DNA of 64,000 nucleotides from Buxus sempervirens (Eukaryota > Streptophyta > Magnoliopsida > Buxales > Buxaceae). Below the pieces are notes generated by a model. It worked only from the letters and a program-made list of their open reading frames with translations. It was not told the DNA's origin and made no database searches. This document shows positions 17,154-49,737 of this stretch, one piece after another. Both the position numbers and the translations under genes were made by a program. Location: the NCBI GenBank assembly GCA_947561395.2, contig OX387183.1, positions 13,691,402 through 13,755,401 of the forward strand, read 5' to 3'. The first letter of the stretch is position 1. Every line of letters begins with the position of its first letter.

Positions 17154-17155
17154 AC

Positions 17156-17173
17156 TGGCGACTCTGCTCGGGA
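17156..17173 (+). promoter_or_regulatory. Ogre-1 primer-binding site (tRNA-Arg type)
   Basis: TGGCGACTCTGCTCGGGA begins two bases after the LTR terminus TCTCACA. It is nearly identical to the site at 60940 in the second Tat/Ogre-like element, which reads TGGCGACTCTGCTGGGGA. tRNA-Arg priming is typical of the Tat/Ogre group of Gypsy elements. Confidence 0.85.
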
Positions 17174-18869: not shown

Positions 18870-18874
18870 CTTGC
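18870..18874. repeat. Left TSD (CTTGC) of the Sirevirus
   Basis: CTTGC directly precedes the 5' LTR start (TGTAAGTGTG) and is repeated at 32565-32569 directly after the 3' LTR end (CTCATTCA). A perfect 5-bp duplication fixes both borders. Confidence 0.95.
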
Positions 18875-20056: not shown

Positions 20057-20058
20057 AT

Positions 20059-20070
20059 TGGTATCGGAGC
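20059..20070 (+). promoter_or_regulatory. Sirevirus primer-binding site (tRNA-iMet type)
   Basis: TGGTATCGGAGC lies two bases after the LTR end. The consensus for plant Copia elements is TGGTATCAGAGC, complementary to the initiator Met tRNA 3' end. One base differs from that consensus. Confidence 0.85.
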
Positions 20071-20116
20071 CTATTTACTTTGAATTGCTATACAAAGTGT
20101 GATCTAGATCTATAGC

Positions 20117-20623
20117 ATGGATTTTGGAAAAGAAAGAGGATCTGCGTCTAGACCTCCATTATTTGAAGGTAACAATTATTCTTACTGGAAAGCAAGAATG
20201 AGAGCTTACCTGAAATCTATCGATGAGCGTGTCTGGCTCTCGGTTTGTAATGGTTATCATCCTCCTGAGATCACAACAGAAGGAGGTGTTGTGATCCCTA
20301 AACCTCATGATCAGTGGACTAAAACTGAATCTGATCAATGTGGATGGAACAACAAGGCAATGAATGCCTTATTTTGTGCTGTTAGTGTTGAGGAATTCAG
20401 GAGAATTTCCTCATGTGAAGTCGCTAAGGAAGCTTGGGACATTCTTGAGGTCACTCATGAAGGAACCTCAGCTGTCAAGCTGTCCAAACTTCAAAGACTG
20501 ACAACATCTTTTGAAACTCTATACATGAAAGATGATGAGTATTTTGATGAATTTTATGCCAGACTGTCTGATATTGTTAATTCGAGTTTTAATTTTATGC
20601 CAGACTACATGAAAGGTTGTTAG
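20117..20623 (+). CDS. Sirevirus gag, N-terminal part (168 aa before a frameshift)
   Basis: Start of the nucleocapsid-type structural protein. The first ATG after the primer site opens with [20 protein letters not shown], and [11 protein letters not shown] follows, the DUF4219-type start common to Copia gags. A UBN2-type region follows ([20 protein letters not shown], then [14 protein letters not shown]). The frame stops at a TAG (20621-20623). The downstream coding region continues in another frame, which opens just after a TGA at 20610-20612, so one small indel near 20590-20613 separates the two. The same product should run into the 20631 frame. I regard this as damage rather than programmed shifting because no slippery heptamer is obvious at the join. 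Confidence 0.8.
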
Positions 20624-20630
20624 AAAAATT

Positions 20631-23600
20631 TTGAGATCTTTGCCTGAAAAATTCAGACCTAAAGTTACTGCCATACAAGAGGCAAAAGATGTAGATACCA
20701 TGAGAATTGAAGATCTTGTAGGATCTTTACAGACTTATGAGCTAGATCTGAATATTCCTAAAAGGAGTAAAGGAATAGCTCTAAAATCTGTGAATACTGA
20801 AGAATCAGATAATTTTGATGTAGATATGGATGAACTTGTTCTCTTAGCTAAAAAGTTCAAGAGAATGTTTAAAAAGAGACAATCCAATCCTTCATCATCC
20901 ATGGACAGATCTAATAGGAGATCTGATAAGAAAATTTCTGATCCAAGAAAGGAGAAGAAATTTTCTCAGAATGATGAAGTTCAATGTTACAAATGTAGAG
21001 GATTTGGACATGTTGCCTCTGATTGTCCCTCAAAGGATAAAAAGAAAAAGACGAATTATCAGGTTACTTGGGATGACAGTAATACTAATAATTCTTCACA
21101 ATCTGATGAGGATATTTCTCCTAATTTTACTGCTTTCAATTCTTTTTACTCATCTTCCTCTGGTAGTTCAATCTCTGGAATTGCAGGAGATAATAAAGAG
21201 ACTTTATCAGATGATGAAGAAGAACTACAAGAAGCCTACAATCAGCTCTATAAGGAATTCAATAGAGCTCAGAAGAAAGTCAAGAAACTGAGTAAAAAAT
21301 TGAAGGAATCAGAAATAGAGAAAAATAAAGCTCTTGCAGAAATAGATTCCATAAACAAGAAGTTACTTGAAAGACATGCCAAAGAAAATTCTCTGGTAAC
21401 TTCTTTAACTGAAAAAACTGAAAAATTAAAAGAAAAGGAAGCTCAGATTTCTGCACTTCAAGGTAAAGTGATTGAACTTGAGAAAGTTTCAAATTCAATT
21501 AAATCTAATGCTTCAAATTCTTCTGCAGGAAATCATCAAATTGATGAGGAATCAACTTCAAAGGAAGTTCCTGAAAGCTCAAATTCTGCTGAAAAGAGAA
21601 TGAGTGTAAGTAATCAAAATAAGGAATCTTCACAGAAAAATTATGCTGGAGAAGTAAGACCAACAGGTAAATCTTCAACATCTGAGAAATCTAAATTTGT
21701 ACAATTTAGAAATACTGTCAAATCTGGAAATGTTGATTCTTCTGAACAAAGGTTCATACCTGTATGCCATCACTGCAATAAAAGGGGTCATATAAGACCA
21801 AAGTGTTATGTTTTGCATGGTTTTCCTGAGGGATATTTTGACAATAAGAGGAAAGTAAATCAAAGTCAATCCCTGGATTTATACAACAGATTTGATTCCC
21901 TGTTAAAATTGACTGAAACATTAAATAAGGAAGTCACAAATCTGTCAAAGAAGCTTCCTTCAAAATCTCAAGTAGTTGATGAAGGCACTTCTCAGAAAAC
22001 TCCTGAAAAACAGATTTGGATTAGAAAAGATTCCTTAGTTGCTAATGTGGTTCATGTAGCTTTGAAAGCTCATGATGTCAACATGTGGTACTTGGACAGT
22101 GGTTGTCCAAGACATATGTGTGGACATAGGTCTATGTTTAGTACCTTTGAAGAATACTTTGGTGGAAGTGTTACATTTGGTGATGGAAGCACTTCCCAAG
22201 TTAAAGGTAAAGGAACTGTAAATGGTCCAAATGGTGTCTGTCTGAAAGATGTGTTATTTGTATCTGGTTTGAAGGCAAACTTGATTAGTATTAGCCAGTT
22301 ATGTGATTTCAGATTGTTTGTCAATTTTACTAGAAAAGAATGTAAAATTTTGGATAATTCTGGTAAAACTGTTCTTATAGGTGTAAGAACAAATGACAAT
22401 TGTTATGGAATCATTGGAAACAATGAAAAATCTTTAACATCTTCTGTATGTAATGAAATTGATTTGTGGCATAAAAGACTGGGTCACATTAACTATAGAG
22501 ATTTGTCAAAAATCTCTAAGTTTGAATTGGTTAGAGGAATTCCCAAGTTCGGGAACAATAAAAAGAAAGGAATGTGTGGTCCTTGCAATCAAGGAAAACA
22601 AATCAAAGCCACACACAAGAAACTCAATATTGTAGGAACCTCTAGACCATTAGAACTGATTCATATGGACTTAATGGGACCTACAAAGACTGAAAGTCTT
22701 GGAGGAAAGAGGTATATCTTTGTTGCTGTAGATGACTACAGTAGATATACTTGGGTAAATTTTTTAAGAGAAAAATCTAAATGCTTTGATTGTTTTAAAC
22801 AATTGTGCTGTCAAATTCAAGTTGAAAAGAACTTTCAAATAGGGAGAATAGTTAGAATAAGATCTGATCATGGTACAGAATTTGAAAATCAGATGTTTTC
22901 AAAATTCTGTGAAGACCAGGGAATTAAACATGAATTTTCTGCTCCTAAGACTCCACAGCAAAATGGAGTTGTGGAAAGGAAAAACAGAGTTTTGCAGGAA
23001 ATGGCTAGAACCATGATGATAGCCAAGAAAGTATTAACAAAATTTTGGGCTGAAGCTATAAATACTGCCTGTTATATAAGTAACAGAGTATATGTCAAAT
23101 CTGGGTGGAAACAAACTCCTTATGAAATTTGGAAAGGAAAACAGCAAAACTTGAAATATTTTAGAGTCTTTGGAAGTAAATGCTATATTCTAAGGGACAG
23201 AGAAAATTTAGGAAAATTTGATTCTAGAAGTGATGAAGGAATCTTTCTAGCATATTCTTCTTCTAGTAGAGCATACAGAGTTTTTAACTTGAAAAAATCT
23301 GTTGTAATGGAATCTATTAATGTGTTAATAGATGATGAAGGAACTGACTGTGAACTTTTGCAGGTTGTAGATGAAGAGGATGAAGTCAGAGATGCTTTCT
23401 CAAGCAATGAAATTGTTCCTCTGTCAAAAACTCTCAAAGATCACCCAACTGAGCAAATTGTTGGAAATATTTCAGATGGTGTAAGAACAAGACATCAAGT
23501 ACATAATGAGGTAAGATTTTCTTCTTATCTATCTCAATTTGAGCCAAAATCTTACAAAGATGCCTTGTTGGATGAATCCTGGTTAAATGCTATGCATGAA

Positions 23601-25067
23601 GAACTAAACCAATTTACTAGAAATAATGTATGGGAATTAGTTGTAAGACCCTCTGATCTGAATGTGATAGGAACCAAATGGATTTTTAAGAACAAATCTG
23701 ATGAAAATGGGGTTGTAACCAGAAATAAAGCTAGGCTTGTTGCTCAGGGATACACTCAAGTAGAAGGAATAGATTTTGATGAAACCTTTGCTCCTGTAGC
23801 TAGGTTAGAATCAATCAGATTACTTTTGTCTATTGCATGCTATTTGAAGTTTAAACTGTTTCAAATGGATGTTAAGAGTGCATTCTTGAATGGATATCTG
23901 AATGAAGAGGTCTATGTAGAGCAACCTAAAGGATTTGAAGACACAAATCATCCTAAATATGTCTATAAGCTGAACAAAGCCTTGTATGGACTCAAACAAG
24001 CTCCTAGAGCTTGGTATGAGAGACTCACCTCTTTTTTAGTTGAATCTGGTTTTATGAGAGGAAATGTGGATAAGACTCTTTTTATTCAAAGAGAGTCCGA
24101 ACATATTTTGATTGCTCAAATCTATGTTGATGACATAGTGTTTGGATCCACTTCTGAAAAACATGCTCACTTCTTTGGAGACTTAATGAAAAGTGAATTT
24201 GAGATGAGTATGATGGGTGAACTGAACTTTTTCTTAGGACTTCAGATTTATCAATCTCAACAAGAAATTTTTTTCTCTCAAGCCAAATATGCTAGAAATC
24301 TAGTGAAGAGATTCAGTTTAACTCATGCTAAACATGCTAGGACTCCTATGAGTACTAGCTTAAAGCTTGGAAAAGATGAATCTGGTAAGGATATAGACCC
24401 TACTTTGTACAGAGGAATGATTGGAAGTCTTCTGTACTTAACAGCAAGTAGAAGTGATATAAGCTTTAGTGTTGGAGTTTGTGCTAGATATCAGGCTAAT
24501 CCTAAAGAATCTCATCTAAATGCTGTGAAAAGGATAATAAAGTATGTTAATGGTACTGTTGATCTGGGAATCTGGTTTTCCAAAGAAACAAACCCATATC
24601 TGACTGGATACACTGATGCTGATTGGGCTGGGTGTATGGATGATAGGAAAAGCACCTCTGGTGGTTGCTTTTATATGGGTAATAATCTCATTGCTTGGTT
24701 AAGCAAAAAGCAAAACTCAGTTTCTCTAAGTACTGCTGAAGCAGAGTACATTGCTGCAGGTAGCAGTTGTACTCAACTTATTTGGATGAAACAAATGCTT
24801 TCTGATTATGGTTTAGATCAGGACCAAATGATTCTCTTCTGTCACAATCAAAGTGCCATAAATATTTCCAAAAATCCTGTTCAACACTCAAGGACCAAAC
24901 ATATAGACATCAGGCATCACTTTATAAGAGAGTTAATTGAAGACAAAACTGTTTTGATTGAATATATATCTACTGAAAAACATTTGGCTGACATTTTCAC
25001 TAAACCTTTAGATCAGAACAGATTTGAAACTCTTAGGAAATCCCTAGGAGTTTGCTCTCAAAACTGA
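20631..25067 (+). CDS. Sirevirus gag C-terminus plus pol polyprotein
   Basis: Open for 1478 codons; its first codon is TTG, so this is a continuation and not a true start. In order: a gag remainder with a zinc knuckle at about residues 118-132 (CX2CX4HX4C in [14 protein letters not shown]), a coiled coil at about 195-290, and a second knuckle at about 378-391 ([14 protein letters not shown]). The protease has a DSG catalytic motif ([13 protein letters not shown], about 486). Integrase has an HHCC-type region (HKRLGH...CGPCNQGK) and DD35E residues near 678, 746 and 782. Reverse transcriptase shows [12 protein letters not shown] and the YVDDIVFG active site at about 1165. RNase H shows TDADWAG and AEAEYIAA. 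All catalytic motifs are present, so only the gag join is broken. Confidence 0.95.
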
Positions 25068-25465
25068 GACAGGTTCTGTTTTGAGTTAATTTAGATGTAA
25101 AATAATCTACATATCTGTTCAAAATGATCTTGTGTGTTCTTGATACTGAAATCTTAATTCAGGAAGCTTGAGTCTATGCATATTGATAGAAATGTCTTAT
25201 AATCAATTATCATTTTTGTCTTAAACACTTTTGTGCATTGAAGTTTATTGTGTGTTTGAAGCTTGGATTCTATAGGCTATCACCTTTATGAAAAGAAAAG
25301 TTTTGGAAATGGCTGCCATAGAGATTCGAGTGAAAGCCACTGTTATTCTCAAAAAGAAAAAGAGAAAGAAGGTATATCCTTGGAATGAACTGTAAACTCA
25401 GGTTTTTTAAGGGTCAATGCCTTCTACAAAAAGAAAAGAAAAAGAGATCAGAAAAGGCTACCTAT
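25068..25465 (+). other. Sirevirus spacer after pol
   Basis: Non-coding. It contains A-rich stretches (AAAAAGAAAAAGAGAAAG and similar) and ends at the TSD CCTAT of the nested solo LTR. The spacer resumes at 28755. Confidence 0.6.
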
Positions 25466-28400
25466 TGTAAAACCCCGAATTTTCAGTAAATAAATAAATA
25501 ATAATTACTTATGAATATCTTGAATGTCAATATATTTGTCAAAATAACTTAGAGAATAAACTTGGAGATTTCGGAAGAAATTGAATGGGTAGATGTGAAA
25601 ATATTGAGAGAAGGGTATTTCGGTCAATTCACATTAATTATCGGTAAATAATTAAATACATTAATTAAAATTTGTTATTAGACTTGAGAAATACTAATAG
25701 ATTTAAATTGGGGTTTAGATTGTCTATTAACAATGATATTTAAAGTTTAGTAATAGGAATAATGGCATATTGGTAATTATGTTTGATTTGAAGCCTGAAG
25801 TCGAGGAGATCAGAATTTTTTTGAAGGAAATATATTATAATTATAGATGATCACACTGATAGGGGAGATCTGGAGTTTGATGCAGATCTGACCGTTGAAT
25901 CGCGAGATATCGAGTTAAGTATGGATTAACGGTCCTTATTAAGTCTAATGGGTGGATGAGTATGGAACCTGATCCTAGGGAGATGCGTGGGATCAGGGAA
26001 GAATAAAATAGGGTTGAATAGTTTTAGTTGTATTCGTAGGATGTCTTGTGCGTTGAAGTTGGAGGCTGCGGCGGAAGAGAAGAAGAACGAGAGAGAGAAA
26101 GGGAGACCGAGAAGAAGGAGGAAGAGGGCATATCTCTGGTTCCTCACCATTCCTGGAACGTCTCTTGCCTGCGAAGAGGAGAGGAAGTCTCTGGTTGGAA
26201 GAAGAAAGGATTTGAGCGGACGGAGGTAGGTGGCACTTCGTTTTAACGCTTATTTTGTGTTTATGAGATTATTCGATTCGATTGCATGATCTTCTATGTT
26301 GTAAATATGTGTATATTGATTGATATTAATTTATATGAATTTTAGAAGCGATTAGAACCCAAAAATTTGATGTTTAGAAACTCGGTTCGTCGTTCTGGTT
26401 AGAGCGCCGAGCTCGCCTGCACTCAGCGCTCCTAGGCGATGTTCGGCGTTCGTTGAAAAATTTCGAGCACCCGAGACCGCCGAGTGACGGACGATCGGCG
26501 CTCCTTTTATTTATAATGAAATACGCGTAACGCTGAAGAGCGCCAAGTTAGTCTATCGGAGCGATCTTAGGCGATCAATGAAAAAAAACGAATTAATGGC
26601 TTGTAATGATTACAAGCCTAAACCTTAAATATTTTTATATACTTTAATGAATTAAAACCCAAACGTAAATACTTCCATCTTACTTTATTGAATTAAACTA
26701 AACTCTAAATACTTTCATATGCCTTTTTGACCCTCACCAAACTTTAAATAAATTGAAAAACTTAACCTAAACATACTTAGATTTGTTTACGTACATGACT
26801 CTTTCACTAAACCTAAACTTTAACAATTTTTGATAATTTAACCGTATATTAATTAAATCTTAATACTTTAAAAACCAACCACATATATTCTTAAATAGTT
26901 GAATATTAATTAATACATTATTAGAACCGCACTTTAGCGTGCGTGTTATGCGTTCAACTTTCGATATAATTAAATACCTGTTTAACACTAAATCAGGATG
27001 TCACGTTAAACTTATTTTTATATACTGAACAAAATATTATGATTAATAAACTGGGGAACTGTTTAGAACCGGACCTTGAACATGAACCTAATATGTTATA
27101 AATAATAATGGAATTGAGAACTATCTGTGATGGCTTGGTGGCCAGTTTTATAAATAACCTGCTTGGTGGCAGAGATACCCGCTTGGTGGCGGAGACCCTA
27201 ACCCGCTTGGTGGCGGAGACCCTAACCTGCTTGGTGGCAGAGATACCCGCTTGGTGGCGGAGACCCTAACCCGCTTGGTGGCGGAGACCCTAACCTGCTT
27301 GGTGGCAGAGATACCCGCTTGGTGGCGGAGACCCTAACCTGCTTGGTGGCAGAGATACCCGCTTGGTGGCGGAGACCCTAACCCGCTTGGTGGCGGAGAC
27401 CCTAACCTGCTTGGTGGCAGAGATACCCGCTTGGTGGCGGAGACCCTAACCTGCTTGGTGGCAAAGATACCCGCTTGGTGGCGGAGACCCTAACCTGCTT
27501 GGTGGCAGAGATAACCCGCTTGGTGGCGGAGACCCTAACCCGCTTGGTGGCGGAGACCCTAACCTGCTTGGTGACAGAGATAACCCGCTTGGTGGCGGAG
27601 ATACCCGCTTGGTGGCGGAGACATTACCTCCTGCGGGAGAGATTCATTACCTCCTGTGGGGCAGATGTATTTCCGATGGATTGCATCCTACAGGAGAGAT
27701 ACCTCATGTGGGGGAGATGTGATTATGCGTGATTGCATCCCACATGGAGGATGGGTGTGTGAGTTACCACTGGAAGGTGAGGAAGCTATCTCCTATGGTA
27801 GAGGTAGATGCTAGGTGTTCACATCCTGCGGTAGAGTTATGCTGTCTCCTGCAGGGGGTACCTGTAGTCTTAGAGATGTGCATTCTCCTGCGGAGCTTGT
27901 GTGGATACTACGTGTTTGAGTTCTATGGTAGAGATAGGCTACTACCTGAAGGTTGGCTTTTATTACTGATATGATGATTGATTCTCAGGATGATGGATTG
28001 TTTATTTAAAAAGGAAATATTGAAATGTTATAACTGAATAGAATTGCTATGATTTAATGAGAACTGTTAAAATGGAATATTATGGAATCACGAATAAAAT
28101 GTGGAACTGCTCTTAAGAAGACACTACAGAAAATAAACCAGAAATCATGGGAATGTGAAATATGATACATTGTCCTTTAAATTGAAATGAAACACACATA
28201 ATTAACTTCTTTTAAATTCGGGCATTGATTAAATGTTTGTTTTATATTGAGATTATTCGTTTATCTTATTGACCGTAATTAGTCGTCTATTTTACCGAGC
28301 ATGAAACCACTGTTATTTTCTGTATGTATAAACTGTTTCCTCATGCATGTGTTACCTACTGAGATAGTTGTATCTCACCCCTACTTCATATTCTACTTTT

Positions 28401-28749
28401 CAGGTTATCTTGGAGAGGACGCCACGGGTTAGACAGATAGTGGGTTGAAGTCTAGAAATTCCATATGAAAAGAGTAGTGTGATTTTATATAGCTGTATTT
28501 ATTTGGAATCGTAATAGATGATTTTGTAGGATATTAAGAGTTAGTTAAATTTGTAGTTGCCTTCCATTTGATTAGTGAATGTAATCGGATGATTCAGCTT
28601 CTAATAAATTATTTAAGCTTCCTAGTACTCTGATAAATTTTAGTTCTTTATTTCCTTATATTTGAACTGACTGTAATGTACCACAAGTTAATGCCTTGAT
28701 CCGAGTCAAAATGAAAAAAAAAAAAGAGACCCGGATTCGGGGCGTTACA
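25466..28749 (+). mobile_element. Solo LTR (Gypsy-like, 3284 bp) nested in the Sirevirus
   Basis: It starts TGTAAAACCCCGAATTTTC and ends CCGGATTCGGGGCGTTACA, so the termini are near-perfect inverted repeats beginning TG and ending CA. A perfect 5-bp TSD (CCTAT at 25461-25465 and 28750-28754) flanks it. There is no primer site, purine tract, gag or pol inside, so it is a solo LTR or an LTR-like non-autonomous unit. A purine-rich leader-like block (26080-26230) and a large minisatellite (27133-27625) lie within. The short open frames here are translations of repeats and are not genes. Confidence 0.85.
27133..27625 (+). repeat. Minisatellite of about 22 units within the solo LTR
   Basis: GCTTGGTGGCGGAGACCCTA and GCTTGGTGGCAGAGATACCC alternate, with spacing of 24, 24 and 20-21 bp in a higher-order pattern. 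About 22 copies of GCTTGGTGG are present. Copies are almost identical except for the CGGAGACCCTAAC/CAGAGATAC choice. Flanking sequence (27625-27960) shows weaker repetition of CTCCTGCGGGAGAG wording. Confidence 0.9.
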
Positions 28750-28754
28750 CCTAT

Positions 28755-29616
28755 CTCTGATGTGCGAAAGCCACCAAAATGAAGTTGGGGTATGTCTATA
28801 CTTTCCAAGTATGATTACACTAAAATAGCCTTCCATATGTATAAAGTGTAAAAGTCAAAAAATATTTTTCACACACTACACAAACATTGACTAATTAATA
28901 TGCATATGAGCTCAATATCTTGAAGAAAATTTATAGTATGAGAAACCATGAAGGAATTTTGGTCATAGATATGAAATGTGTCACATCTGAATTAACCTTG
29001 ATAGGTTCCTTAAGATCAGTTTTGTGAATAAGTACTTCTTGGATTGAATAACAGTTGATTATCTGGATGATTTTAGTTTAGTTAAAATCTTAGCTTTGTG
29101 TTTAGAAGTATGATTTTTTTCATGAAGAATAGTTCAAACTCTCTTTATAAATTTTTTCCTTATGAGTGTATTTCTGTTTGAGTGTGCATGTGCACCTTCT
29201 ACGTCGCTAGAAGCGTGCTGGTAGCCTCTCCTCTATTTCATGCTTTGGCACCTGCCATGGTAAGCGTCGCTGGATGCACGCTGGCAGCGAAATTTTTTTC
29301 CCTATAAAAGGGGGAAATCTGTTTCATTTTTTTTACCTCTGTTTTTTTTACTCTCTCTGCTTTTCACCTCGCTCCTCGCGTCGTGGTCTTACTCTTCCTT
29401 CGTGCTTACCCTCCGTCACCTTGTCCACTGTTCAGGTAAATTTTTTTTTACTGTCTTCATCTTGCTTCTCCATTCTCTGCTTCCTATTTCAGTTGTCTTC
29501 TCTTGTTCTTCTTAGCTAGGGTTTGGTAGATTATTCTGCCATTAGGGCTTTATCGTTCATTGTTTGTTTCTGTCTGTTTGTTCTTTCTCTTTCATTTTTT
29601 TAAAAAAATCTTCACC
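28755..29616 (+). promoter_or_regulatory. Probable internal promoter of the Sirevirus env-position ORF
   Basis: Two palindrome-like modules of exactly 22 bp lie at 29205-29226 and 29268-29289, both ending TGGYAGC with a CGCT start. They have the same length and wording as the 22-bp palindromes in the LTR U3. A TATA box (TATAAAA, 29303-29309, in CCCTATAAAAGGGGG) follows 14 bp after the second module. Downstream is a CT-rich leader with a possible 5'UTR intron: donor TTCAG|GTAAAT near 29435 and acceptor TATTTCAG near 29490. The ORF start at 29617 sits in the context TTCACCATGCC. The promoter role is inferred from layout only. Confidence 0.5.
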
Positions 29617-30741
29617 ATGCCTCTCAAGAGAAAATCGAGGACTGATTCTCCTTCCACATCTTCTCCTCTTGTGAGGTCTTCTCCTGTTATCTCTTCTCCT
29701 CCAGTGAGACCCCCGTCCCCTCCTCAGTCCTCTGATCCATTCATTGGTAATGGTTTATCTGATTTTAATGAGTTCTTCAAGCATAGGCCACTCCTGTTGG
29801 AAAGGGCCATTAAGCTTGAGTCTTTTTCTGAATCTCTTCTCTACTCATTGTTTTCGGACAATGGTTGGAAAAAATTTGCTTTGGTCAATGGTTTTGCATA
29901 TCCGGACCTGGTCCGTGAATTTTATTCAAACCTCCACAATCTTCATCTTGCCAATCAAGGCTATGTCAAAGCCTATGTCAGGGGTATCTCGTTCGACTTC
30001 TCGAAAGAGCTTATCTCCTCTCTTCTCGAACTGCCCCTTGTTGATTCTCCTTCCTTTAACTTTCTTGATTCTCATACTGATCCTCTGATGGAGTCTATTA
30101 TTCCTTCTCTAATTGTTCCGGGTGCTCCTACTTCCATCAAAAACAAGCCCAACTACTTTCCTCATGGCTCTCTTCAAGATCTTCTCCGGATCTTGAATCT
30201 GTTTGTGTGTGCTTCTCTTGTTCCCTCAGATCACCATTCTAAGATTTCTCACTCGAGAGCAAGACTTCTTCATGCTCTCTGGAACAGAGACAGTGTCTGT
30301 ATTCCCTCCATCATATTCCATCAGATCCTTCAGTCTCGGAATTTAAAATCCAAGACTGCTGCTCTTCCTTTTGGCATATTCATCACTTACCTGTGTATTC
30401 ATCAGGGGGTACTCCCTGATCCTGCTGAAATGATCCTTCATCCCAGACCTCCCATTGATTCCTCAACCCTGACCAGAAGTAAACGAGCAAATCCTTTTCG
30501 TTTGGTGTCTTCTGAACCCTCTTCTTCTCAGTCCTCTTTGTCCAGCTCTGATGCTGTGGCAATTATGGAAAAACTGAATTCCATGCAAGCCTCCCAGGAG
30601 GCTTTCAACTATGAAGTTAGGGCTCACATGCTCATGATGAGCATGTTCAAATCAGAGACCCAAGAGAAGCTGGAGCAACTGGCAAAGGTTGTTGATTTTA
30701 CCTGTGGTGAGGTACAAAGGGATGTTGCTGCTCAGCAATGA
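29617..30741 (+). CDS. Sirevirus env-position ORF (putative plant transposon protein domain)
   Basis: 374 residues from the ATG at 29617, chosen for its ACCATGCC context and basic start MPLKRKSR; the frame is open 19 codons further upstream without a clear role. A Ser/Pro-rich N-terminus is followed by a region (about 60-250) with WKKFALVNGFAYPDLVREFY and YVKAYVRGISFDFSKELI. This wording resembles the domain called putative plant transposon protein in many plant retroelements. A C-terminal coiled coil follows (about 320-374). No signal peptide or membrane segment is evident, so an envelope function is not supported. After the TGA at 30739-30741 the same frame stays open to about 30904 with more helical sequence, so this stop probably truncates the protein. 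The gene lies after pol and before the 3' purine tracts, as in SIRE-type elements. Confidence 0.75.
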   Translation: MPLKRKSRTDSPSTSSPLVRSSPVISSPPVRPPSPPQSSDPFIGNGLSDFNEFFKHRPLLLERAIKLESFSESLLYSLFSDNGWKKFALVNGFAYPDLVREFYSNLHNLHLANQGYVKAYVRGISFDFSKELISSLLELPLVDSPSFNFLDSHTDPLMESIIPSLIVPGAPTSIKNKPNYFPHGSLQDLLRILNLFVCASLVPSDHHSKISHSRARLLHALWNRDSVCIPSIIFHQILQSRNLKSKTAALPFGIFITYLCIHQGVLPDPAEMILHPRPPIDSSTLTRSKRANPFRLVSSEPSSSQSSLSSSDAVAIMEKLNSMQASQEAFNYEVRAHMLMMSMFKSETQEKLEQLAKVVDFTCGEVQRDVAAQQ

Positions 30742-31097
30742 ATGCAAAATGAAGCTGATCATTTTCTGGAAAGCATTCAGAAGACTCAGTTGGAGATGGA
30801 TCACAAACTCTGTTGGCTGCACTCCAGGTCCCAAGACGCATACAAGCATTACTCAAGGACTTGGGAACCAAAACCACCTTCCAGAAAGGGGGAGTTTTTT
30901 GGATGATGATGCTGCTGGAGTTGATGTTTCTGTTGATGGTTCTGCTAGGTTGTTGCTGCTGCTTGCTTGTTGCTTGCTGCTTGTTATTTTTTTCTCTCTA
31001 TGTGTTGTGTATTTGTTATGTTTCTGAAAGTTGGCTTGTAGAGGAGTTTTCTGTGGGTTTGTAAGGGAAGTTTTATGTTGGTTGGTTGGATGTGTAT

Positions 31098-31256
31098 ATA
31101 TCTGTTGGAACAATGTATACTCTTTTTTGAATGAATGAAATTCTGGATTCTCATATCTGTTGGAACAATGTATTTTGAATGAATGAAATTCTGGATTCTC
31201 ATATCTGTTGGAACAATGTTTATCCTTTTTGAATGAATGAAATTCTGGATTCTCCA
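31098..31256 (+). repeat. Three tandem copies of a 48-55 bp unit near the Sirevirus 3' end
   Basis: ATATCTGTTGGAACAATGT...TTGAATGAATGAAATTC, then TGGATTCTC, occurs at 31098, 31153 and 31201. The variation is confined to the T-rich linker. It lies between the env-position ORF and the 3' purine tract and is non-coding. Confidence 0.85.
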
Positions 31257-31365
31257 AAATCACTGTGTCTCTCCTTATCAGTGTGGTTTTAAAATTCTTA
31301 AATGAAAATCAATATTAACTGAGTTTGATATTAAACACTGTTTTAAGGTTGTTGTCAGGCATTTG

Positions 31366-31378
31366 CCAAGGGGGAGAT
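31366..31378 (+). promoter_or_regulatory. Sirevirus polypurine tract
   Basis: CCAAGGGGGAGAT abuts the 3' LTR start (31379). It is the plus-strand primer site expected for Copia/Sirevirus elements. A similar AGAAAGGGGGAG sits upstream near 30886; extra purine-tract copies are reported for Sireviruses. Confidence 0.85.
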
Positions 31379-32564
31379 TGTAAGTGTGAAAACTCACACT
31401 CCTTTTATGGCAAATGTTTGACAAATTATGTCTTCTAATAAATCTTCAAGATGTGCAGATTAAATAATGAAAATTCAGTGAATTTAGTAAAGAAGAAGAA
31501 GACGATGCTGCCACACAGCTACCACGCCGCTGGTAGCTCAAGGAAATGAAAGATTTTCTAAATAGAGCATTTTCTTGTAAAGGCACTTGCGAAGATCAAC
31601 GCCGCTGCCACTCCGCTGGCAGCGCATAAGTGAATCAGTGCTTTGAAAATAAGGCACGTGCACTAGCGTCGTAAGGCGACGCCAACACGCCGCTGGTAGC
31701 GCAGAGCGTGATTGAAGATTATATGATCAGCTGTGCACATGCCGCGTTCTCTCCCGCTAGCAGCTCGCTGGCAGCGCGCCCTTAACTGATTCAACCTGTT
31801 CTGAGCGGGACTTGAGTTCGCTTCCAGCCGTCTACCCCGATCGCACCACGACGCCACCAGCGCTCGACGCGATCTGAATTTTCTCCTTTAAATAGACGTG
31901 CTGTAATTTTTAGAATGGACTTTTTCTTTGGATCAATTTGATTTCGGATCTTGAGGTATTTGAGATTCGATCAAATCTTCTTTAGAGAGTCGGCGATCGA
32001 GTGAGGGGGAGATCTGAGATAGATCGCCTGGAATTGAAGGTAGAGGATTCTTCTTCAATTCGGAACTTCATCTGATCGTGTGATCGCCTGGACTGGTGAT
32101 CGGCTTTGATTGATGCGTAGGTGGATTCCTACTGCATTAGATCGTCTCAGTGGATTCTGAGGTGATTGTTGCGATCTGGATTGATCGTGTTCTGCAGCTT
32201 GTGGATTCAAGCTGTGTTGCAGTTCGTGGATTCGAACTGTGGATCACTGGTGAGTGATTGTTTGCGATCTGGATTGATCGTGTTCTGCAGCTTGTGGATT
32301 TAAGCTGTGTTGCAGTTCGTGGATTCGAACTGTGGATTGCTGTTGAGTGAGTTCAATTATAAAGGTTAAGTATGTGCTCCTTTGTAATTGTCTTTTCATT
32401 CAATAGTGGAATTTCGAAGGGTTAGTCGCTTCATATAGACTCGAGGTTTTTCCTGGATCTGGATTCAGGTTTCCTCGTATAATTCTCTGTGTGTATGTTT
32501 CCGCATTGTTAAATTCTGAATTGTTGTAGATCGTGGACCTATAGAGTAGTCCTCTACTCATTCA
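31379..32564 (+). repeat. Sirevirus 3' LTR
   Basis: Nearly identical to the 5' LTR: about 14 substitutions and one 4-bp insertion (GATT in the AACTGATTCAACC segment) by eye. The first two palindromes keep their 22-bp length. In the second (31602-31623), the 5' copy reads CTCCAC between the arms and this copy reads CTCCGC, so the change is in the loop and the arms are unchanged. It is followed by the TSD CTTGC. Confidence 0.92.
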
Positions 32565-32569
32565 CTTGC

Positions 32570-34942
32570 TAATCAAACATTTCTGGGTCCTTTCGTCCCT
32601 AAGGTATACAAGTAATTGGGCAGAAGTGCCAAATAAGATAAATGGCATATAAACCATTCCAAATGCACCCAAATCAAAGGATTAAGGTCATTTTGAACAT
32701 ATTCACCTAAATTGAACAAATTAACTCAACTCAAAGGTGAAAATACAAAATAAAAGTTGGTTCAAACCAAAAAACAGGTCAGGTACCTCAATTTGGGGAT
32801 TAAGTGTACATTGGGCTCTTTTTACCCAATTTGACCACTTAACCCATTCTAAGTGAAGTAAATGATAAAAAAAAATTGGTTCAAATAACCAACCAAATCT
32901 TGCTTCAATCTTAGGAATTGAATTTGGAAATTACCATAAGCTTTAAAAACATATTTCAAGCTCAAAACTCAATCCAATGCGAAGAGAGCTTAATTCATTC
33001 CTAAAATGGGGCAATACCCAACCAATCTGTAAATAAGAAGTCTTTAATCATAAAGTGTTCAAACTTTTAAGATTTCTTCCAAAGAGTAATTGGGTCACTT
33101 GGAAACCTTTGAATTCCAAGCAAATAATCATTTAAAAATCCAATGAAAGAAAATTTCAAATAAATCACCACCTTAAAGGCAAATTGAGTCTCTTTTTAAC
33201 TCAAAACACCTAAGGGGGGGGGGGGGGGGGGAAATCAAAAATATTTTAGGCATCTGAAAGCCTTGGAATTTCAGAAAATCAAATCATAGGACCCCTGGAA
33301 GCCTGAAATTCCAGATCTTTTTCAAAATCTTCATAGACCTTCTAAAGCCTGAATTTAGAAACTCATAGGATCCCTGGAAGCCAGAAATTCCAGATCTTTT
33401 TCAAAATCTTCATAGGCCTTCTAAAGCCTGAATTTAGAAAATCATAGGCACTTGGAAGCCTGCGTAATTTCAAGGGGCTGTGGAAGCCTCAATTCCAACC
33501 TTGGTCGGTCTTTTTCGCACCAACCAATTCATAGGTTCCTGAAAGCCTGCATAATTTTAGGAGGTTGTGGAAGCCTTAATTCCAAAGCATAAGCCCTTGG
33601 AAGCTTGCATAATTCCAAGTCTCGAGTTTGTCTAAAGACTTTTACTTTGGACATCTCATCTTTTGTGGGATATGTTGGAAGCCCTAGAATTTTCCAATAT
33701 TAGTTAGTCTTTTTCGTACCAACCAATGCATAGGCCCTTGAAAGCCTGCGTAATTTCAAGAGGCTGTGGAAGCCTTAATTCCAAAGCATAAGTCCTTGGA
33801 AGCTTGCGTAATTCCAAGTTGTGATTTGTCTAAGGACTTTTACCTTAGGCATCTCATTTTTGTGGGACGTTGGAAGCCCTAGAATATTCCAGCATTGGTG
33901 GGTCTTTTTCGTACCAACCAATTCATAAGCCCTTGGAAGCTTGCGTAATTCCAAGTTGTGATTTGACTAAGGACTTTTACCTTAGGAATCTCACTTTTGT
34001 GGGATGTTGGAAGCCCTAGAATATTCTAACAAATCCTTTGGATGGTCTTTTCCATACCAACCAATTCATAGGCCTCTAGAAGCCTGAGTAATTCTAGAAA
34101 CCTTTTGCTTGGGCCGTCTAAAAGCCTCTGAATTTTAGACACAACCTTTTTGGGCCGTCTATAAGCCTTTAAATTATAGACACATATCTTGGGCCGTCTA
34201 AAAGCCTCTGAATTTTATACACCCTTTTTGGGCCGTTTGAAAGCCTCTGAATTTCAAACATCATTTCTTTTTGGCCGTCTAAAAGCCTCTGAATTTTAGA
34301 CACCTGCATAAGCCTCTAGAAGCTTGCGTGATTCTAGAACCCACTCATAGGACTTCTGAAAGCCTGAAATTTCAGAATTTATCTCTTGGGCCATCTAAAA
34401 GCCTCTGAATTTTAGACACAACCTTTTTGGGTTGTTTGAAAGCCTCTGAATTTCAAACATAATTTCTTTTGGACCGTCTAAAAGCCTCCAAATTTTAGAC
34501 ACCTCATAGGCCTTCTAAAGCCTGAATTTAGAAAAATCATAGGATTTTTGAAAGCCTTTAAATTTCAGAACTCATATCTTGGGCCGTTTAAAAGCCTCTG
34601 AATTTTAGACATTTCTCATTTTTTGGGACCTTTTGGAAGCCCTTAAATTCCATATTCTTTTGGATGGTCATTTGTACCAACCACTTCTCCTCACAAGGTC
34701 AATTTTGACCAAAACAAAAACAAACAAAAAAAAAGAAAGAAAAATTTAAAAATAAGAAAAACAAAAGAAATTGTAATTCAAACTCATGTTCACCAAAACA
34801 TGCATACATGCATTCTTGAAAGTGTGTGAGTTTAACTTGAAATGTGCACTAACTATGTTTCTTTTCTTTTATTTCAAAAGGTCTTCGGCTCCTACCTGCA
34901 ACCATTGCTCCCAGGTGCTCTCAGAGACTAAGATCTGCCACC
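32570..34942 (+). other. Ogre-1 leader, second part, with the hairpin array
   Basis: Non-coding continuation of the Ogre-1 leader after the Sirevirus. A run of 18 G lies at 33214-33231. From 33253 to 34660 it is filled with short inverted repeats (separate entry). From 34690 to 34880 the sequence is A-rich and leads into gag. Confidence 0.7.
33253..34660 (+). repeat. Array of about 30 short hairpins with conserved core and varying stems
   Basis: Each unit is an imperfect palindrome of 20-25 bp with a core AAGCCT(n)AATT. Examples: TCTGAAA-N9-TTTCAGA (33253-33275), TTCTAAA-N7-TTTAGAA (33340-33360), CTTGGAA-N10-TTCCAAG (several), GTCTAAAA-N9-TTTTAGAC (34116-34140), GTCTATAA-N9-TTATAGAC (34157-34181), GTTTGAAA-N9-TTTCAAAC (34235-34259), TCTAGAA-N10-TTCTAGA. 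Stem changes on one side are matched on the other. Units are separated by short phrases such as TTGGGCC or CATAGG. In the transcript they would form a run of small stem-loops before gag. Confidence 0.88.
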
Positions 34943-36848
34943 ATGAACCCTATTGAAGAACGATCTACTGTGTCTGCTGAAGCCTTTGCTCAACTGCAAG
35001 AGCAAGTGGCTGGGATGACCAAACTACTGGAGAATCTACTGGCTAACCAAGCAGCCCAAGCCCAGACGCAAGCGCAATAGGCACAAGCTCAGGCTCAGGT
35101 TCACCAAGCCTCTTCTTCCCACAATGCACCACCACCAGCACAACCTATCCAACCTCCACCACCAGCACAACCCATTCCACCTCAACCTGAATTCCACCAA
35201 CCTATCTCTAAGCCTATCTTGATCAGGGAAGAGGAGTCTGAATTTGAGAAAGAGAAAGAGAAGGAGAAGGAGAAGGAAAGACTGAGAATGGAAACAGAGA
35301 AGAAATTTTTCGAGAGACTGGAATCACTCCAGGAGGAACTGAGGGAAGTCAAGGGGGTTAACACGTTCGGAGGCACAAATTTTGATGATCTTTGCCTCTA
35401 CCCTGACATATGCTTACCGACCAAGTTTAAGTGCCCGGATTTTGACAAATACGACGGCACTGGCTGCCCAATGAGCCATCTGAAGCTCTACTGTGGGGCA
35501 TTGTGCCAATTTGGCTGGGATGACGGCATTTTGATCCAACTATTCCAGAGGAGCCTGACTGGGGCAGCCTTGAGGTGGTTTGCAACTGTAGACCATGGCA
35601 AGATCGGGAGGTGGAAATATCTGGCCGATGCCTTCCTAGCTCAATACCGCTTTAACTCAGACATTGTGCCAGATCGGTACGATATGATGAAGATGAGCAA
35701 AGGAAGGGAAGAGACAGTTAGGCAGTATGCCAAGAGGTGGAGAGAAGCTGCCTCCCAAGTAAGGCCGCCAATGATGGAGCCCGAAATGACCTCCACCTTT
35801 ATCGGCACACTGGGGCAGCCATTTTACAATCATCTCGTGGGTCAGACTACCACCAGTTTCGCCGCCTTAGTGCAAGTGGCCGATCGGATTGAAGATGGAG
35901 TAAGATCAGGGAGGATCATCGACTACTCTGCCGCAACCGGCCAATCAGATGCATCTGCCTCCTTTGCTCAGAAAAAGGGGAATGGAACAAGAAGGAATGG
36001 AGGAATGAAAGAAGGGGATGAATATGGTACAACTCCAATCTGCAAAGAAACCCCTCCAAATCAACATTTCTGCACCCCCATCCATGACAATCCAACCACA
36101 AACCACCTTTCAAAACCCTCTCAATGTCAATGTTCCTCAGCAAGCAATGCCTTACCAAAGGAAGGTCTTTTCGAAAGAGGAGAGAGAAGCTTGGATGGCG
36201 TCCAGAAGGAACAGGGTCTTTTCCCCTCTTCCCGTGACTCCATCCCAGCTTTTGCCAACCCTGTTAAATGCAGGGTATGTTACTCTGAAAGAACCATATC
36301 CTAATGCTTCAAAGGGAAAGAATTTTGATCCCTCCACCACTTGTGATTACCATATGGGTGCACCAGGACACCCTACAGACAAGTGTTGGCTTTTAAAACA
36401 TGCCATCCAGGATTTGATCGATCAGAAGACCCTGCAGTTTAACACAGTTGCTCCCTCTCCCTCTGGGACTGACATTGGTCAAAATCCTCTACCCCAGCAC
36501 AATGGGGCAGGCCCCTCCAATTTCGTGGAAGCCATCTCTTCTGGACCTAGGACTTTTGATCCCTCGCAGCTGATTGCGCTTATAGGGACGTCCGTTAAGG
36601 TCTATTTTGACAAAGAAGAGGTAGAGGAACAGATCAGTGTCATTCCTGGAAGGAAAAGAAACGGCAAGATTGCTGAGGACATTGACTCCTCTCTAGTCTG
36701 GGTCGCATCTTTCATGGCCCAAATCAATGCCTCCAAACCACCTTCTATGCCCAAAGCCACGGGTGAGCCTGAGCCACTGCCACAAGAGCAACAGGATTTC
36801 ACAGAAGGAGCCGGGACATTCTTTGCAATGGCAGAGAATGAGGAATAA
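34943..36848 (+). pseudogene. Ogre-1 gag, broken by a stop and a frameshift
   Basis: Capsid-type protein of a Tat/Ogre-like Gypsy element. The frame opens at ATG 34943 (MNPIEERSTVSAEAF) and meets an in-frame TAG at 35078-35080 within a Gln/Ala-rich stretch, where neighbouring codons are CAA/CAG. It then continues through an acidic coiled-coil segment to the retrotransposon gag domain (FQRSLTGAALRWFATVDHGK at about 35545-35605, then AQYRFNSD). Near 35985-36020 the frame shifts by one base. The rest continues to 36848 with a CX2H-type knuckle in the wording CDYHMGAPGHPTDKCWLLKH, as in Tat/Ogre gags. After the TAA at 36846 the same frame resumes with MPFMDWAVVQDQV, so that stop may also be acquired. 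The start of the second element's gag at 63113 is a homologue. Confidence 0.85.
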
Positions 36849-39830: not shown

Positions 39831-42717
39831 TGTAGACACCCCAAAATTGCACGATTTTTGATAAATCTTGAAGGAGAGAAATATTTTATTGGTAATTTCA
39901 ATTCTTAGCATTGGGTTTGAGATCCTTAACCCATTTGAATCCAAAGCCGCAAAGGAAAAGGCCCAAATTCAATATTTTATGCAAAGCCAAACTTTTTCGG
40001 GTTGAATTTTGTTAACTTTTGACCCCAGAAAATGAAATATTTTTTAAAGCAAGATTTGAAGATAATTTTTCCCGGTAATCAGGTTTTTAGCAATGTTATT
40101 GCATAAATGAATTTTTTGAGATTTTTAATCTTGACAAATACCTTTGTATCAACATGTTGAATCTTTTTACCGGACCTGAAAAACCGGAATTTAGCCTGGA
40201 ACTGGAAAGTTGACTTTTTATTCACTTGGAATTTGGGTCTGGAAATATTTTTAATGGATTCAAATGGGGGGGTGTTTGCTTATTTACATGTAATATCTTA
40301 AGTAAATGGATATTAAAAAAATACGAGGACATTTACTTAAACGATATTACATGTAAATAAGCCTGGCCTGTGCAGTTAAGGCTTAAAACCAACCAAAAAT
40401 GTGCTGACCGTAGTATATGTGCGGTTTTTGAGAATTTGGTCTCAACCGCCCTGTATGTACGGTTGCAACCGTATACACAGCACGGTTGATATTCATGCTT
40501 ATCGCGCGGGTTGCCACGTGGCTTCCGGAAGCTTCGGCCGTTGGGACACGTCGACAGCAATCATGACGAGCGTAACTGAATTGAACCGCCCTGTATGTGC
40601 GGTTGAGATGAATTTGCATAAAAACCGCACATATAGGACGGTTCTGTAGAAACCGTACTGTGTATACGGTTTTGGTTGTTTCGGGGATTTGCGAAAAAGC
40701 TCGATCTCTGAGCCTTATTTATGCACATTACCTCTCTCTCAGGGACTTGAACTCCCTATTTCACCCTCCGAAACTTGCTGAATTACTCCAATTCAAGCCT
40801 TGGAGGAGAATTGGAATAATCTAGAAGGCTTTTTTGGCCTACCCTTGGGACTCTTCTACCCTTGGCTTGGCCTATAAATATAGAGGTCCTCCTCTTGCAA
40901 ATGGCTGAGAATTTGAAGCTTGGAAGCTCTGGAAGAAGAGGGAAAACTCTGCTGGATTGCTGCCTCAAGTGTTCAAGCTACCAAAGGTAAAGCTCCATTT
41001 GATTTTCTTGTTTCCTCTTTACATTCAACTCTCCACTTCTACCTTTCTGTAGTGTAAAGCCAGTGTGTGATTGTTTGCAAGCCCCAAACCTCTTCCAAAG
41101 TACCTGGGAATCCTCTCTAGCCGTAAAACGTGAAGAGAGAGCCTTGGGAAAAGGAAGGTGGAATGGACCCTTTAGGCTTAGAACCTACATATGATGAAGA
41201 GCATGTTTATTGGTTATTTTGAACCTATGGTTGCTTCTCTGATCTGTTTTTGTATTTACCTATGGAGAAGATGCACAAATCCATGCTCTCAATAGCAATG
41301 GATTCAAACCTTCTCCTAGAAATGTGATTTTCCACACCTCTCCACACACTTTTCACTATTTTCATCAAATAGGCTAGATCTTGGACTTTCCATGTTCAAT
41401 ATGGAAAATCTGATATCCCAGGCCTTAGAATGAACTTTTAGAACTTCATGAGTTGTTTTTCATGATTTTAAGTTGTTTTGGTCGAAATCATATGCACACA
41501 TGCACCATTTTAGCTTTCTATTCAAAAATATTTCAAAACAGGGCAGCATCTGTAGACTGTCTTGGAATGCTCATAACTTCATCCTCCGGATGAATTTTTG
41601 AGTGATTCCAAAGACATAAGATAGATGAGTATGTCTAGTTTATATCTGGAAAGTTTCGTCCACTTTTATGTAGCCAATTTTTGACATCATCTGCTCAAAG
41701 TTTGTAAGACAGTTCAGCCCAGATTGCTGAACTAGCCGCTTTGATGGTGCACCATTTGCTCAACTTTAATCCGTTTTGAGTGATTCTAATTCCTGAGTTT
41801 TCCTTGAGAAGTCTATTTTCATTTCCAACTGGTTTCAGCAGATTTTGATTTGATTTAAGGCCTGTGTGCTAGATTGACTCAGAGGTGCTCGCTGGCATAG
41901 TCCAGAGCTAATCTGTGGTCTTCTAGGCCTGTTCAAGGGAGCACACAAGCCACATCCGGATAGAGTTTGGGGTAAGGCTTATCTCTTTGGAAATATGGCA
42001 CTATATACTTCCCCCATACCAATTTTCATGAATTTTTATTGAGCCAAACTCCACGAATAGGACTTTGAAAATGCCTACTCATCACTTTTTCTGAGTTATA
42101 AACAGCAAATTTCAGATGTGGATTTCTCTCTCATTTTGAATTGGATTGAGCTGAAATTTTTAATGTAGACTCTACTACATACCAGTTTTCAAATGGCTTT
42201 GGTTTCATTGGATTTGGATTTAAATTGAGTGAGTTATGGTTAATCGAAGCTTTTAAGCCCTTTTAGCCAGATTTTTCCAAATTTGCCTTGAATTGGTTTT
42301 GCTTCAATTTTCACTTTGATTTTTATTCACTCATGAAGTTCTAAGAGGTGATATATCCATGAAGAGAGTTTATATTTATTGGACTACTCATGTGGAATAA
42401 TCACTTACATTTTGCTTACTTTTAAGCAACCTTTGTCTATTTTGATTAGCAAACAATCCTTAGTATGAGCAAGCATGTGGCAACCGTCTTGGACGGATGA
42501 GTGAGGGTGCCTAACACCTTCCCCACTCATAGCTAATTCCCTTTACCTGATCTCTGGATTTTTCCTGGTATTAGAGCTACTTTGGCTCTATTTGGCTTCT
42601 ATGAATCCTTTGGTATCCATTCACACCTTAAGATGGATGGTGGCGACTCTTTACATTTTATCGATCCCCGCGTGACGATATCGGAAGTCATCCGAGATGA
42701 CATTTCCATGTCTCACA
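39831..42717 (+). repeat. Ogre-1 3' LTR (2887 bp)
   Basis: It runs TGTAGACACCCCAAAATTGC...CATGTCTCACA. It contains an 85-bp near-perfect palindrome (40278-40362), six 21-bp dyads (40406-40426, 40444-40464, 40467-40487, 40584-40604, 40623-40643, 40651-40671), and a TATA box TATAAATA (40873-40880). CACTA-1 sequence resumes at 42718 (GTGTTAATTGTAAG). Confidence 0.92.
40278..40362. repeat. 85-bp palindrome in the Ogre-1 LTR (MITE-like)
   Basis: The arms start GCTTATTTACATGTAATATC and run about 31 bp; the opposite arm ends GATATTACATGTAAATAAGC. About 20 bp of TA-rich loop separates them. The same structure is at 14537-14619 in the inverted LTR. It either arose within the LTR family or is a small inserted foldback element. 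Confidence 0.8.
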
Positions 42718-46679: not shown

Positions 46680-47223
46680 TTAATAAGAGTAATGACGATA
46701 TAAAAACATTGCTATAAAAAGGGCAAGTTGTCTAATATGATTGCATTTGCGACGACTAGAAAGTAGTTTACTATCTACAACGACATTTGCAATGACAAAA
46801 TTGTCGTTGCAAAATAAAGTTACAATTGCAATGAGATATAGTTGTCGCAAATAAATTTACAATTACAACGAAATATAGTCATTGCAAATAAATTTACTAT
46901 TGCAACGAGATATAGTCATTGCAATTACAATTACAATTTCGACGACTATAAAGTCGTTGCTAATAAGTTTACTATTAGCAACGAGCTCTTGTTGTTGCAA
47001 TTTGGAGGTACATTTACAACTACTATTTGGCCACGTGATGTTATTGTTGCAATTACAAATGCACTAGCAACAAAAAAAAATTTCGTTGCAAATAAATATT
47101 TGTGACCACTTTTTTGCCATGACTTTGCAACGATTTTTTTCCGTTGCAATTATGTTTTTGCCACGACATATGGAGGATTAGCAACGACTATAGTGGTTGC
47201 AAAAAGGCATATTTCCTGTAGTG
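46680..47223. repeat. CACTA-1 right subterminal repeats and terminal inverted repeat
   Basis: Repeats of GCAACGA/TCGTTGCAA and GCGACGACTA type, more than ten copies in both orientations, end at the terminus GGCATATTTCCTGTAGTG. The arrangement mirrors the left end. The right TSD is AAT at 47224-47226. Confidence 0.88.
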
Positions 47224-49574: not shown

Positions 49575-49737
49575 ATTAGGGGTCGGGTTTTGGGATTGTC
49601 TTAATACGTTTCAGTTTTGTTAAGGGTTTCTTAGACCAACATGAATTTTCAGTAAATATGTGGCATTAATTCAATCTATCAGTAAATTGAGAAAAACAAA
49701 ATGGAGCTCATCACACTCACGGAGTTCAAGTTCATAC

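Follow-up and report, generated by a model that had tools for sequence, protein, structure and literature searches.

The 3′ UTR of tobamoviruses such as TMV carries the upstream pseudoknot domain (UPD), a row of three small pseudoknots beside the tRNA-like end of an RNA virus. According to the available portion of its description, structure rather than sequence matters in the UPD, which binds eEF1A (PMC4683447). The 5′ pseudoknot of Ty1 (TIPIRT domain) is reported, in the accessible text, to be needed for efficient retrotransposition (PMC5454406), and a packaging role could not be demonstrated for it, as far as the accessible text of a second paper goes (PMC4974528). In Sireviruses, clusters of palindromes with predicted structure draw excess small RNAs (PMC2829016, PMC10760457). 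These palindromes have a CGG-CCG core and are found either within the LTR or before the env-like gene; covarying stems and pairing of the loop with upstream sequence are not described in the available parts of these sources. Tandem repeats are also known from the Ogre/Tat lineage, where the available text places hypervariable repeats in the 3′ UTR, downstream of gag-pol (PMC7004042). The RNA transport elements of MusD and IAP and the CaMV leader are described as single elements.

The locus described here lies in the window, a stretch of 64,000 nucleotides from Buxus sempervirens. Its Ogre-like leader probably gives the sense RNA a row of small H-type pseudoknots before gag, kept by selection while the elements were active. 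Sequence statistics support both the structure and its selection, and the ratio of G.U to A.C among the most common states supports the sense strand. Like the UPD, the array would be a series of small pseudoknots in a plant RNA, but it has 9-34 scanned units per locus and lies 5′ of gag in the leader of an LTR element, not in a 3′ UTR beside a tRNA-like structure. It would resemble Ty1 in having pseudoknot structure early in the RNA of an LTR retrotransposon; the Ty1 pseudoknot is single and long-range and lies within the first 326 nt, whereas the Ogre-like leader has a tandem array. Sireviruses likewise show palindrome arrays in plant LTR elements, but the present array has the core AA-GCC...AA-TT and sits in the leader of an element with a PF03732 gag, which sets it apart from the palindromic repeated motifs (RM) in the LTRs of Sireviruses, which are copia elements. 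The Ogre/Tat 3′ UTR repeats belong to the same lineage, but the array is upstream of gag and conserved in structure. Compared by description, it differs from the MusD, IAP and CaMV elements in having many units. The UPD, the Ty1 pseudoknot, the Sirevirus palindromes and the retroelement export elements are the nearest systems found by mechanism, and none of them is a long tandem array before gag. The first-pass annotation of this DNA, which knew of no described counterpart, was thus worded too strongly, given the tobamovirus 3′ UTR pseudoknots, the Ty1 5′ pseudoknot and the Sirevirus LTR palindrome clusters. Among the top-ranked literature matches, no title dealt with arrays of pseudoknots or hairpins in the leaders of Ogre/Tat elements.

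The window is plant DNA, as judged from its Ogre-like, copia and CACTA-type frames. The array belongs to an old Ogre-like element, which extends from a truncated 5′ LTR at 15065 to the end of the 3′ LTR at 42717 and has the following parts:

15065..17153, plus strand: 5′ LTR of the Ogre-like element, truncated at its 5′ end, matching 40622-42717 at 86.6%
17154..18874, plus strand: first part of the Ogre leader, with 55 ATGs and no ORF of at least 100 aa
17156..17173, plus strand: primer binding site TGGCGACTCTGCTCGGGA, read directly
18875..32564, plus strand: copia element nested in the leader, outside the array, flanked on both sides by CTTGC (18870-18874 and 32565-32569) as its 5-bp target duplication
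34943..36304, plus strand: gag (PF03732, from Pfam), with its ATG in the context GCCACCATGA
39840..42717, plus strand: 3′ LTR region, from alignment to the 5′ LTR

Because of its truncation, the 5′ LTR does not define where the 3′ LTR begins. An inverted LTR fragment of the same family (12183-15064, 92% to 39840-42717) meets the truncated 5′ LTR exactly at 15064/15065, forming an LTR-LTR inverted junction. The LTRs are very long, a trait of the Ogre lineage: at least 2.1 kb are aligned, and 2.9 kb are reached when the inverted fragment is counted. In the primer binding site, 17 of 18 bases are the complement of a tRNA-like 3′ end present at other loci of the genome; we take this tRNA to be tRNA-Arg. 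Ogre elements use a tRNA-Arg primer, according to the available text of PMC9289625. Of 21 matches to the tRNA-like 3′ end, 6 loci were run through ARAGORN, which called no tRNA at any of them. At L216, L217, L218 and L221, more tRNA-like sequence precedes this end, about 39 nt altogether (AACCAGAGATTCTGGGTTCGATCCCCAGC[AG]GAGTCGCCA in L216, L218 and L221), which suggests copying of the primer tRNA past the usual 18 nt; in L217 the tRNA-like 3′ end comes after the LTR end, at the primer binding site.

Since the copia element was inserted in the leader, the Ogre-like leader is made up of 17154-18874 and 32565-34942, about 4.1 kb. The array sits in it upstream of gag, which bears out the position assigned by the first-pass annotation. 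Many, but not all, Ogre members have an extra ORF upstream of gag; neither leader part of this old, broken copy contains an ORF of at least 100 aa. The gag gene is interrupted by an in-frame TAG (35078-35080), and near its end the reading passes into an overlapping frame, 36009-36848. Pfam, run on the gag frames and two downstream frames of the window copy (37095-37394, 38584-38916), detected no pol domain. At another gag locus, L222, which is additional to the 38 described below, a gag-containing frame (3-3713) is followed by an RT frame (PF00078, 4238-5188). This layout would fit the Ogre order of gag-pro, putative intron and RT; no protease domain was called, and RT_RNaseH_2 is the only RNase H domain seen. 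Close to its end, the gag-containing polyprotein of L222:3-3713 has a G-patch domain (PF01585); the separate RT frame follows about 0.5 kb further on.

Other features surround the element. The nested copia element has an RVT_2 frame (20613-25067) and an additional ORF with PF20167 (29560-30741), with a GC-rich minisatellite (27155-27622) between them. Transposase frames at 8725-12184 (Transposase_21, DUF4218, Transpos_assoc, then DUF4216) are presumably CACTA-type. A match to glycosyltransferase family 92 on the minus strand (49671-50336) is probably a piece of a host gene. A 28-bp tandem repeat at 59196-59274 holds the palindrome TACGGG/CCCGTA, and tandem repeats with abundant TTGCAACGA-like motifs occur in two separate places (4898-5448 and 46803-47000).

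The array with its outlying units spans roughly 33092-34652, on the strand of gag:

33248..34652, plus strand: array of 32 AAGC[CT]-core hairpins, putative H-type pseudoknot units, with an S1 score of at least 3 in 29
33092..33120, plus strand: upstream outlying unit with S1a GGGT, stem CTTGGAA/TTCCAAG and loop ACCTTTGAA, from the core-free scan
33175..33204, plus strand: probable extra unit with another core, AAAGG, stem TTGAGT/ACTCAA and loop CTCTTTTTA, read directly
33624..33653, plus strand: internal unit with a different core, S1a GAGT, stem TGTCTAAAG/CTTTGGACA and loop ACTTTTA, from the core-free scan

The first-pass annotation had reported about 30 small hairpins over 1.4 kb, and 32 of the 35 AAGC[CT] sites in the array do open a stem of at least 5 bp (Watson-Crick and G.U), at 33253-34652. 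Elsewhere in the window, only 4 of 148 such sites on the plus strand and 2 of 129 on the minus strand open such a stem. The three array sites without a hairpin lie inside CATAAGCC blocks just 5′ of units. Perfect stems of at least 6 bp with at least one G/C number 26, against 3.4 ± 1.9 (maximum 11) in 500 dinucleotide shuffles, the control that the annotation had proposed. The core, given there as AAGCCT...AATT, is more precisely AA-GCC[T]...AA-TT; its loops measure 7-11 nt, and GCTT (four units), GCCC (four) and GCCA (one) also occur as variant loops among the 32 units. The two innermost stem pairs are A-T in all 32 units, and pairs 3-7 are variable (G-C, A-T, T-A, C-G) and paired in 27 to 32 of 32; full pairing of pairs 1-5 is partly selected because stems shorter than 5 bp were left out of the count. 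As hairpins, the extra units occupy 33098-33120, probably 33184-33204, and 33629-33653. As for the outlying units, 43 unit matches to 33092..33120 were obtained among the 71 copies described below. For 33175..33204, the scan recovers a counterpart in L211-L215 and chose an overlapping alternative, 33190-33219, in the window.

Tandem periods of 39, 79-80 and 199 bp are present in the array. Other small hairpins recur between the core units (33500-33525, 33629-33665, 33821-33866 and repeats). Their types are TCTCA-TTTTTG-TGGGA, GGT-CTTTTTCGT-ACC and GTCTAAAG-ACTTTTA-CTTTGGAC, the stem of the last being CTAAGG/CCTTAG in the other 199-bp repeats. A run of 18 G residues (33214-33231) immediately precedes the array.

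The stem arms (helix S2) were said to vary from unit to unit while staying complementary. This was confirmed against permutation and tree-aware nulls, except that one of the listed arm pairs is broken in the window copy, in the unit at 34196 (GTCTAAAA/TTTTATAC). When right arms are permuted among units, pairing at S2 pairs 3-6 drops from 123 of 128 to 95.2 ± 3.2 (maximum 108, 10,000 permutations). When each distinct arm pair is counted once (17 in total), pairing reaches 3.82 of 4 positions, compared to 3.07 ± 0.13 after permutation. In a tree-aware test covering S2 pairs 3-7 together with pairs 3-4 of the block-loop helix (S1), 214 of 224 positions are paired, where the null gives 142.5 ± 14.3 (maximum 184, 2000). 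Independent covariation events are few since many units are tandem copies. The persistence of pairing in 17 distinct arm pairs, beyond the nulls, upholds the earlier proposal that the unit was kept as a structure.

The first-pass annotation overlooked a second pairing, interleaved with the stem. The loops start with GCCT, GCTT, GCCC or ACCT, which are complementary to AGGC, AAGC, GGG or GGGT in a block just 5′ of the left arm. The sets include CATAGGC with GCCT, CATAAGC with GCTT, TGTGGGA with GCCC, and TTGGGC with GCCT (G.U). Pairing of block and loop around the stem results in the topology of an H-type pseudoknot, and the geometry predicted from sequence agrees with that type: two interleaved helices, a short L1, an L2 near 0 and an L3 of at least 2 nt. 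S1 has 3-5 bp, L1 0-4 nt (mostly 1-2), S2 5-9 bp (mostly 6-8) and L3 3-7 nt; the S1 register used for unit geometry and for the tree-aware tests was chosen by pairing, and the 661 units of the copy-wide geometry survey were also picked by pairing. An L1 of 1 nt is able to span a deep groove of 6-7 bp.

The S1 score is at least 3 in 29 of 32 units, against 23.6 when blocks are swapped among units (maximum 28, 5000) and 5.3 (maximum 12) when the letters of the upstream block are shuffled. On the unit tree, S1 alone has 116 of 128 positions paired versus 81.8 ± 11.5 (maximum 115, 2000); S1 pair 3 changes twice (p about 0.01), and the G-test for S1 pair 4 gave p 0.46. A scan for pseudoknots that does not use the core picked out 28 units of the array, whereas 100 shuffles gave 2.2 (maximum 7). 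The same scan found 3 in the first leader part (shuffles 2.8), 2 just before the array (0.8) and none after it. Units with other cores obey the pairing rule as well, GGGT with ACCT at 33098 and GAGT with ACTT at 33629. A mirror control, in which the 3′ part of the loop is paired with the downstream block, was somewhat high (23 of 34 vs 15.4, maximum 23 in 1000 shuffles). Pairing of loops with the blocks of neighbouring units was considered and rejected; loops pair with their own block in 91% and with those of units within six places in 69-79%. The evidence for S2 is much stronger than that for S1.

Other copies were sought in the same 676 Mb genome. In an array search, 40 of 1977 first-look candidates were scored (124 matched pieces). 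A second search used gag, so that loci were not chosen by their array, and 102 of 12011 candidates were scored. The gag set consists of the best 30 loci (73-100% gag identity) and 8 of the 102 chosen for divergence or long frames (68-81%), four of which have open frames of 1270-1276 aa. The best 30 include the window itself, the near-identical L182 and L183, and three loci that overlap array-selected copies. Family members with the core and without complementary arms, which the first-pass annotation regarded as evidence against its view, were looked for in both sets: all 37 array-selected copies have hairpins, 14-37 units each, and the array is present at every one of the 38 gag loci, among them the window itself. 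At these gag loci it lies within 1.5-1.8 kb before gag and on gag's strand, with the last core unit 396-544 nt upstream of the gag match. The array loci span 68-100% gag identity, all in one genome.

Database searches were also carried out. Rfam gave no match in the whole window at the gathering threshold. A search of viral contigs with the unit pattern returned at least 120 stretches, then 12, with at most 4 scattered units per locus examined; no relative was confirmed in viral contigs searched with the gag and copia proteins, and the unit pattern had no match in genome contigs. A protein search with gag gave 3 matches, including one Hevea protein, and one with a spurious array frame gave none.

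For comparison between copies, the 37 array-selected and 34 gag-selected loci were combined into 71 copies; 4 of 75 loci were dropped as overlapping or window-derived, and near-identical copies were kept. Altogether 1508 unit copies were matched, ungapped and at 75% identity or more, to 34 window units, and 33 positions had at least 5 matches. Between copies, stems differ by 2.6% per base and flanks by 13.7%, a figure that reshuffling of units may inflate. A neutral origin, in which a palindromic founder was amplified like the Tat 3′ UTR minisatellites and covariation arose from block-wise recombination between units, appears very improbable. The clear tandem periods (39, 79-80 and 199 bp), the many near-identical units in some copies, such as L210, and the Ogre tandem repeats known downstream of gag-pol (PMC7004042, available text) speak for it, but 17 distinct arm pairs stay paired, stems diverge far less than flanks, and arrays are present at 38 of 38 gag loci with gag identities of 68-100%.

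Block-loop pairing was followed across the copies. The modal block is complementary to the modal loop at 32 of the 33 unit positions. None of 10,000 permutations attained the observed mean, and the result holds after collapse to 23 distinct combinations. The window copy has four S1 mismatches at pairs 2-4. Those at 33340, 33374 and 34476 are private or nearly so, other copies being paired in almost all cells, and the fourth (34277) is mostly G.T in other copies. In L208, AGGT with GCCT occurs beside AGGT with ACCT, which gives T.G and T-A at one S1 pair. These observations bear on whether the units are simple RNA hairpins in series with a constant loop, the block-loop complementarity being a by-product of a conserved spacer. 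That reading gains from the much stronger S2 signal, from the abundance of GCCT, with which swapped blocks mostly pair (23.6 of 32), and from the small number of founders, whose match could be chance. We consider it unlikely, since variant loops match variant blocks (AAGC with GCTT, GGG with GCCC, GGGT with ACCT, AGGT with ACCT), the modal units pair beyond permutation, and three of the window mismatches are copy-specific or nearly so.

Among the most common states, S1 has 110 Watson-Crick, 13 G.U, 1 A.C and 8 A.G pairs (A.G at the first S1 pair), and S2 has 232 Watson-Crick, 4 G.U and 1 A.C. The mismatches of both helices thus comprise 17 G.U, 2 A.C and 8 A.G. By reading, one of the two A.C states is a one-base register shift (33295) and the other an outermost pair (34354). 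S1 pair 4 accounts for 11 of the 13 S1 G.U states, and eight of these 11 belong to related units of GGGC type; given this clustering, the independent events are perhaps ten in all. Changes at both positions of an S2 pair from a Watson-Crick majority gave Watson-Crick pairs in 51 of 52 cells (10 distinct) and another state in one. Four of the 10 distinct doubles are private to one copy, and distinct S2 single changes number 160. Both S1 double changes gave Watson-Crick pairs. The double changes include transversion pairs (A-T to T-A, C-G to A-T). In one unit of L209 and L211-L215 (TGTTGGAG/CTCCAACA), G-C replaces A-T at the innermost pair, which does not vary otherwise.

Single changes show little wobble preference. 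Distinct changes to G.U and A.C number 50 and 49 in S2, and 28 and 21 in S1; in cells, the counts are 102 to 96 in S2 and 57 to 32 in S1. These numbers are roughly as expected from copies decaying after insertion. In the 37-copy set, 46 G.U against 69 A.C cells in S2 leave a wobble preference unsupported at the level of single changes. An argument for RNA from the window copy alone (6 G.U and 0 A.C in pairs 1-6) was weakened by the other copies. At the window's non-Watson-Crick positions they are Watson-Crick in 68 of 107 cells, so the count of most common states was used in its place.

The first-pass annotation had left the choice between RNA folding and a palindrome-generating process, and of the two, RNA is favoured. 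At the DNA level, quasi-palindrome correction or template switching would copy arms, or cruciforms or protein-binding palindromes would be kept, and RNA folding would be irrelevant. The near-perfect palindromy of the arms, the transversion pairs among the doubles, the absence of a marked G.U over A.C bias in single changes between copies and a nested folding that does not favour the plus strand speak for such a process. It is nevertheless improbable: copying of arms cannot easily create the interleaved S1 pairing, if it acted on inserted copies, many private doubles would be expected, where 4 of 10 are private against 160 distinct singles, modal mismatches are 17 G.U to 2 A.C, and the array has a fixed place before gag.

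Two further results concern the strand. Nested folding was rejected as a discriminator. It gave modest z values for the array windows (-0.3 to -3.3), the minus strand was more stable in 4 of 7, and the method cannot score pseudoknots. The core-free scan found 10 units on the minus strand of the window array against 28 on the plus strand, and 1-35 on the minus strand over the gag loci (1-19 in the 30; L210 has 35 vs 34). It is uninformative on strand because base complementarity is equal on both.

In the pseudoknot row that we favour, a purine block (AGGC, GGGC, AAGC or GGG) would pair with the first bases of the next loop (GCCU, GCUU or GCCC). The loop would close on a stem of 5-9 bp, and its remaining A-rich bases would lie over the short stem. 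The most likely use of such a row would be as a multivalent docking platform in the leader of the genomic RNA, with a constant loop and shape and variable stems. The constancy of the loop and inner pairs, combined with free stems, suggests recognition of loop and shape, and the variable number of units suggests additive binding. Binding by Gag for packaging is a possibility that we put forward tentatively. Binding by host translation factors that govern gag initiation is a slightly less favoured possibility, and a role in RNA export or stability is less likely. The pseudoknots might also be interchangeable parts of a switch between translation and packaging of the genomic RNA, in which every unit would bind Gag, or else a host factor, through its constant loop, while occupancy would be tuned by how many units there are; we hold this view with considerable reserve.

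Translation of such a leader must also be considered. ATG is depleted in 38 of 38 arrays (110 vs 438 expected from dinucleotides), which fits a leader where ribosomes must not start, a weak argument because the repeats share ancestry. In the first part of the leader, 55 ATGs occur where base composition predicts 34, so plain scanning from a cap through all of it is unlikely. Splicing, internal entry or shunting may operate instead.

The array would help to annotate leaders of this kind, which may go unseen after repeat masking. It would also amount to a natural repeat experiment on RNA covariation, with a large number of paralogous pseudoknots in each RNA and numerous copies to compare. Ogre-type elements account for a large share of certain plant genomes, for example 45% in Lathyrus sativus, according to the available text of PMC7004042. 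A selected array before gag is a concrete candidate for the choice of Ogre RNA between translation and packaging. To our knowledge, how Ogre RNA is chosen for either fate has not been established. If the array does work as a switch, we know of no packaging or translation element that was defined earlier in a Ty3/gypsy retrotransposon of plants.
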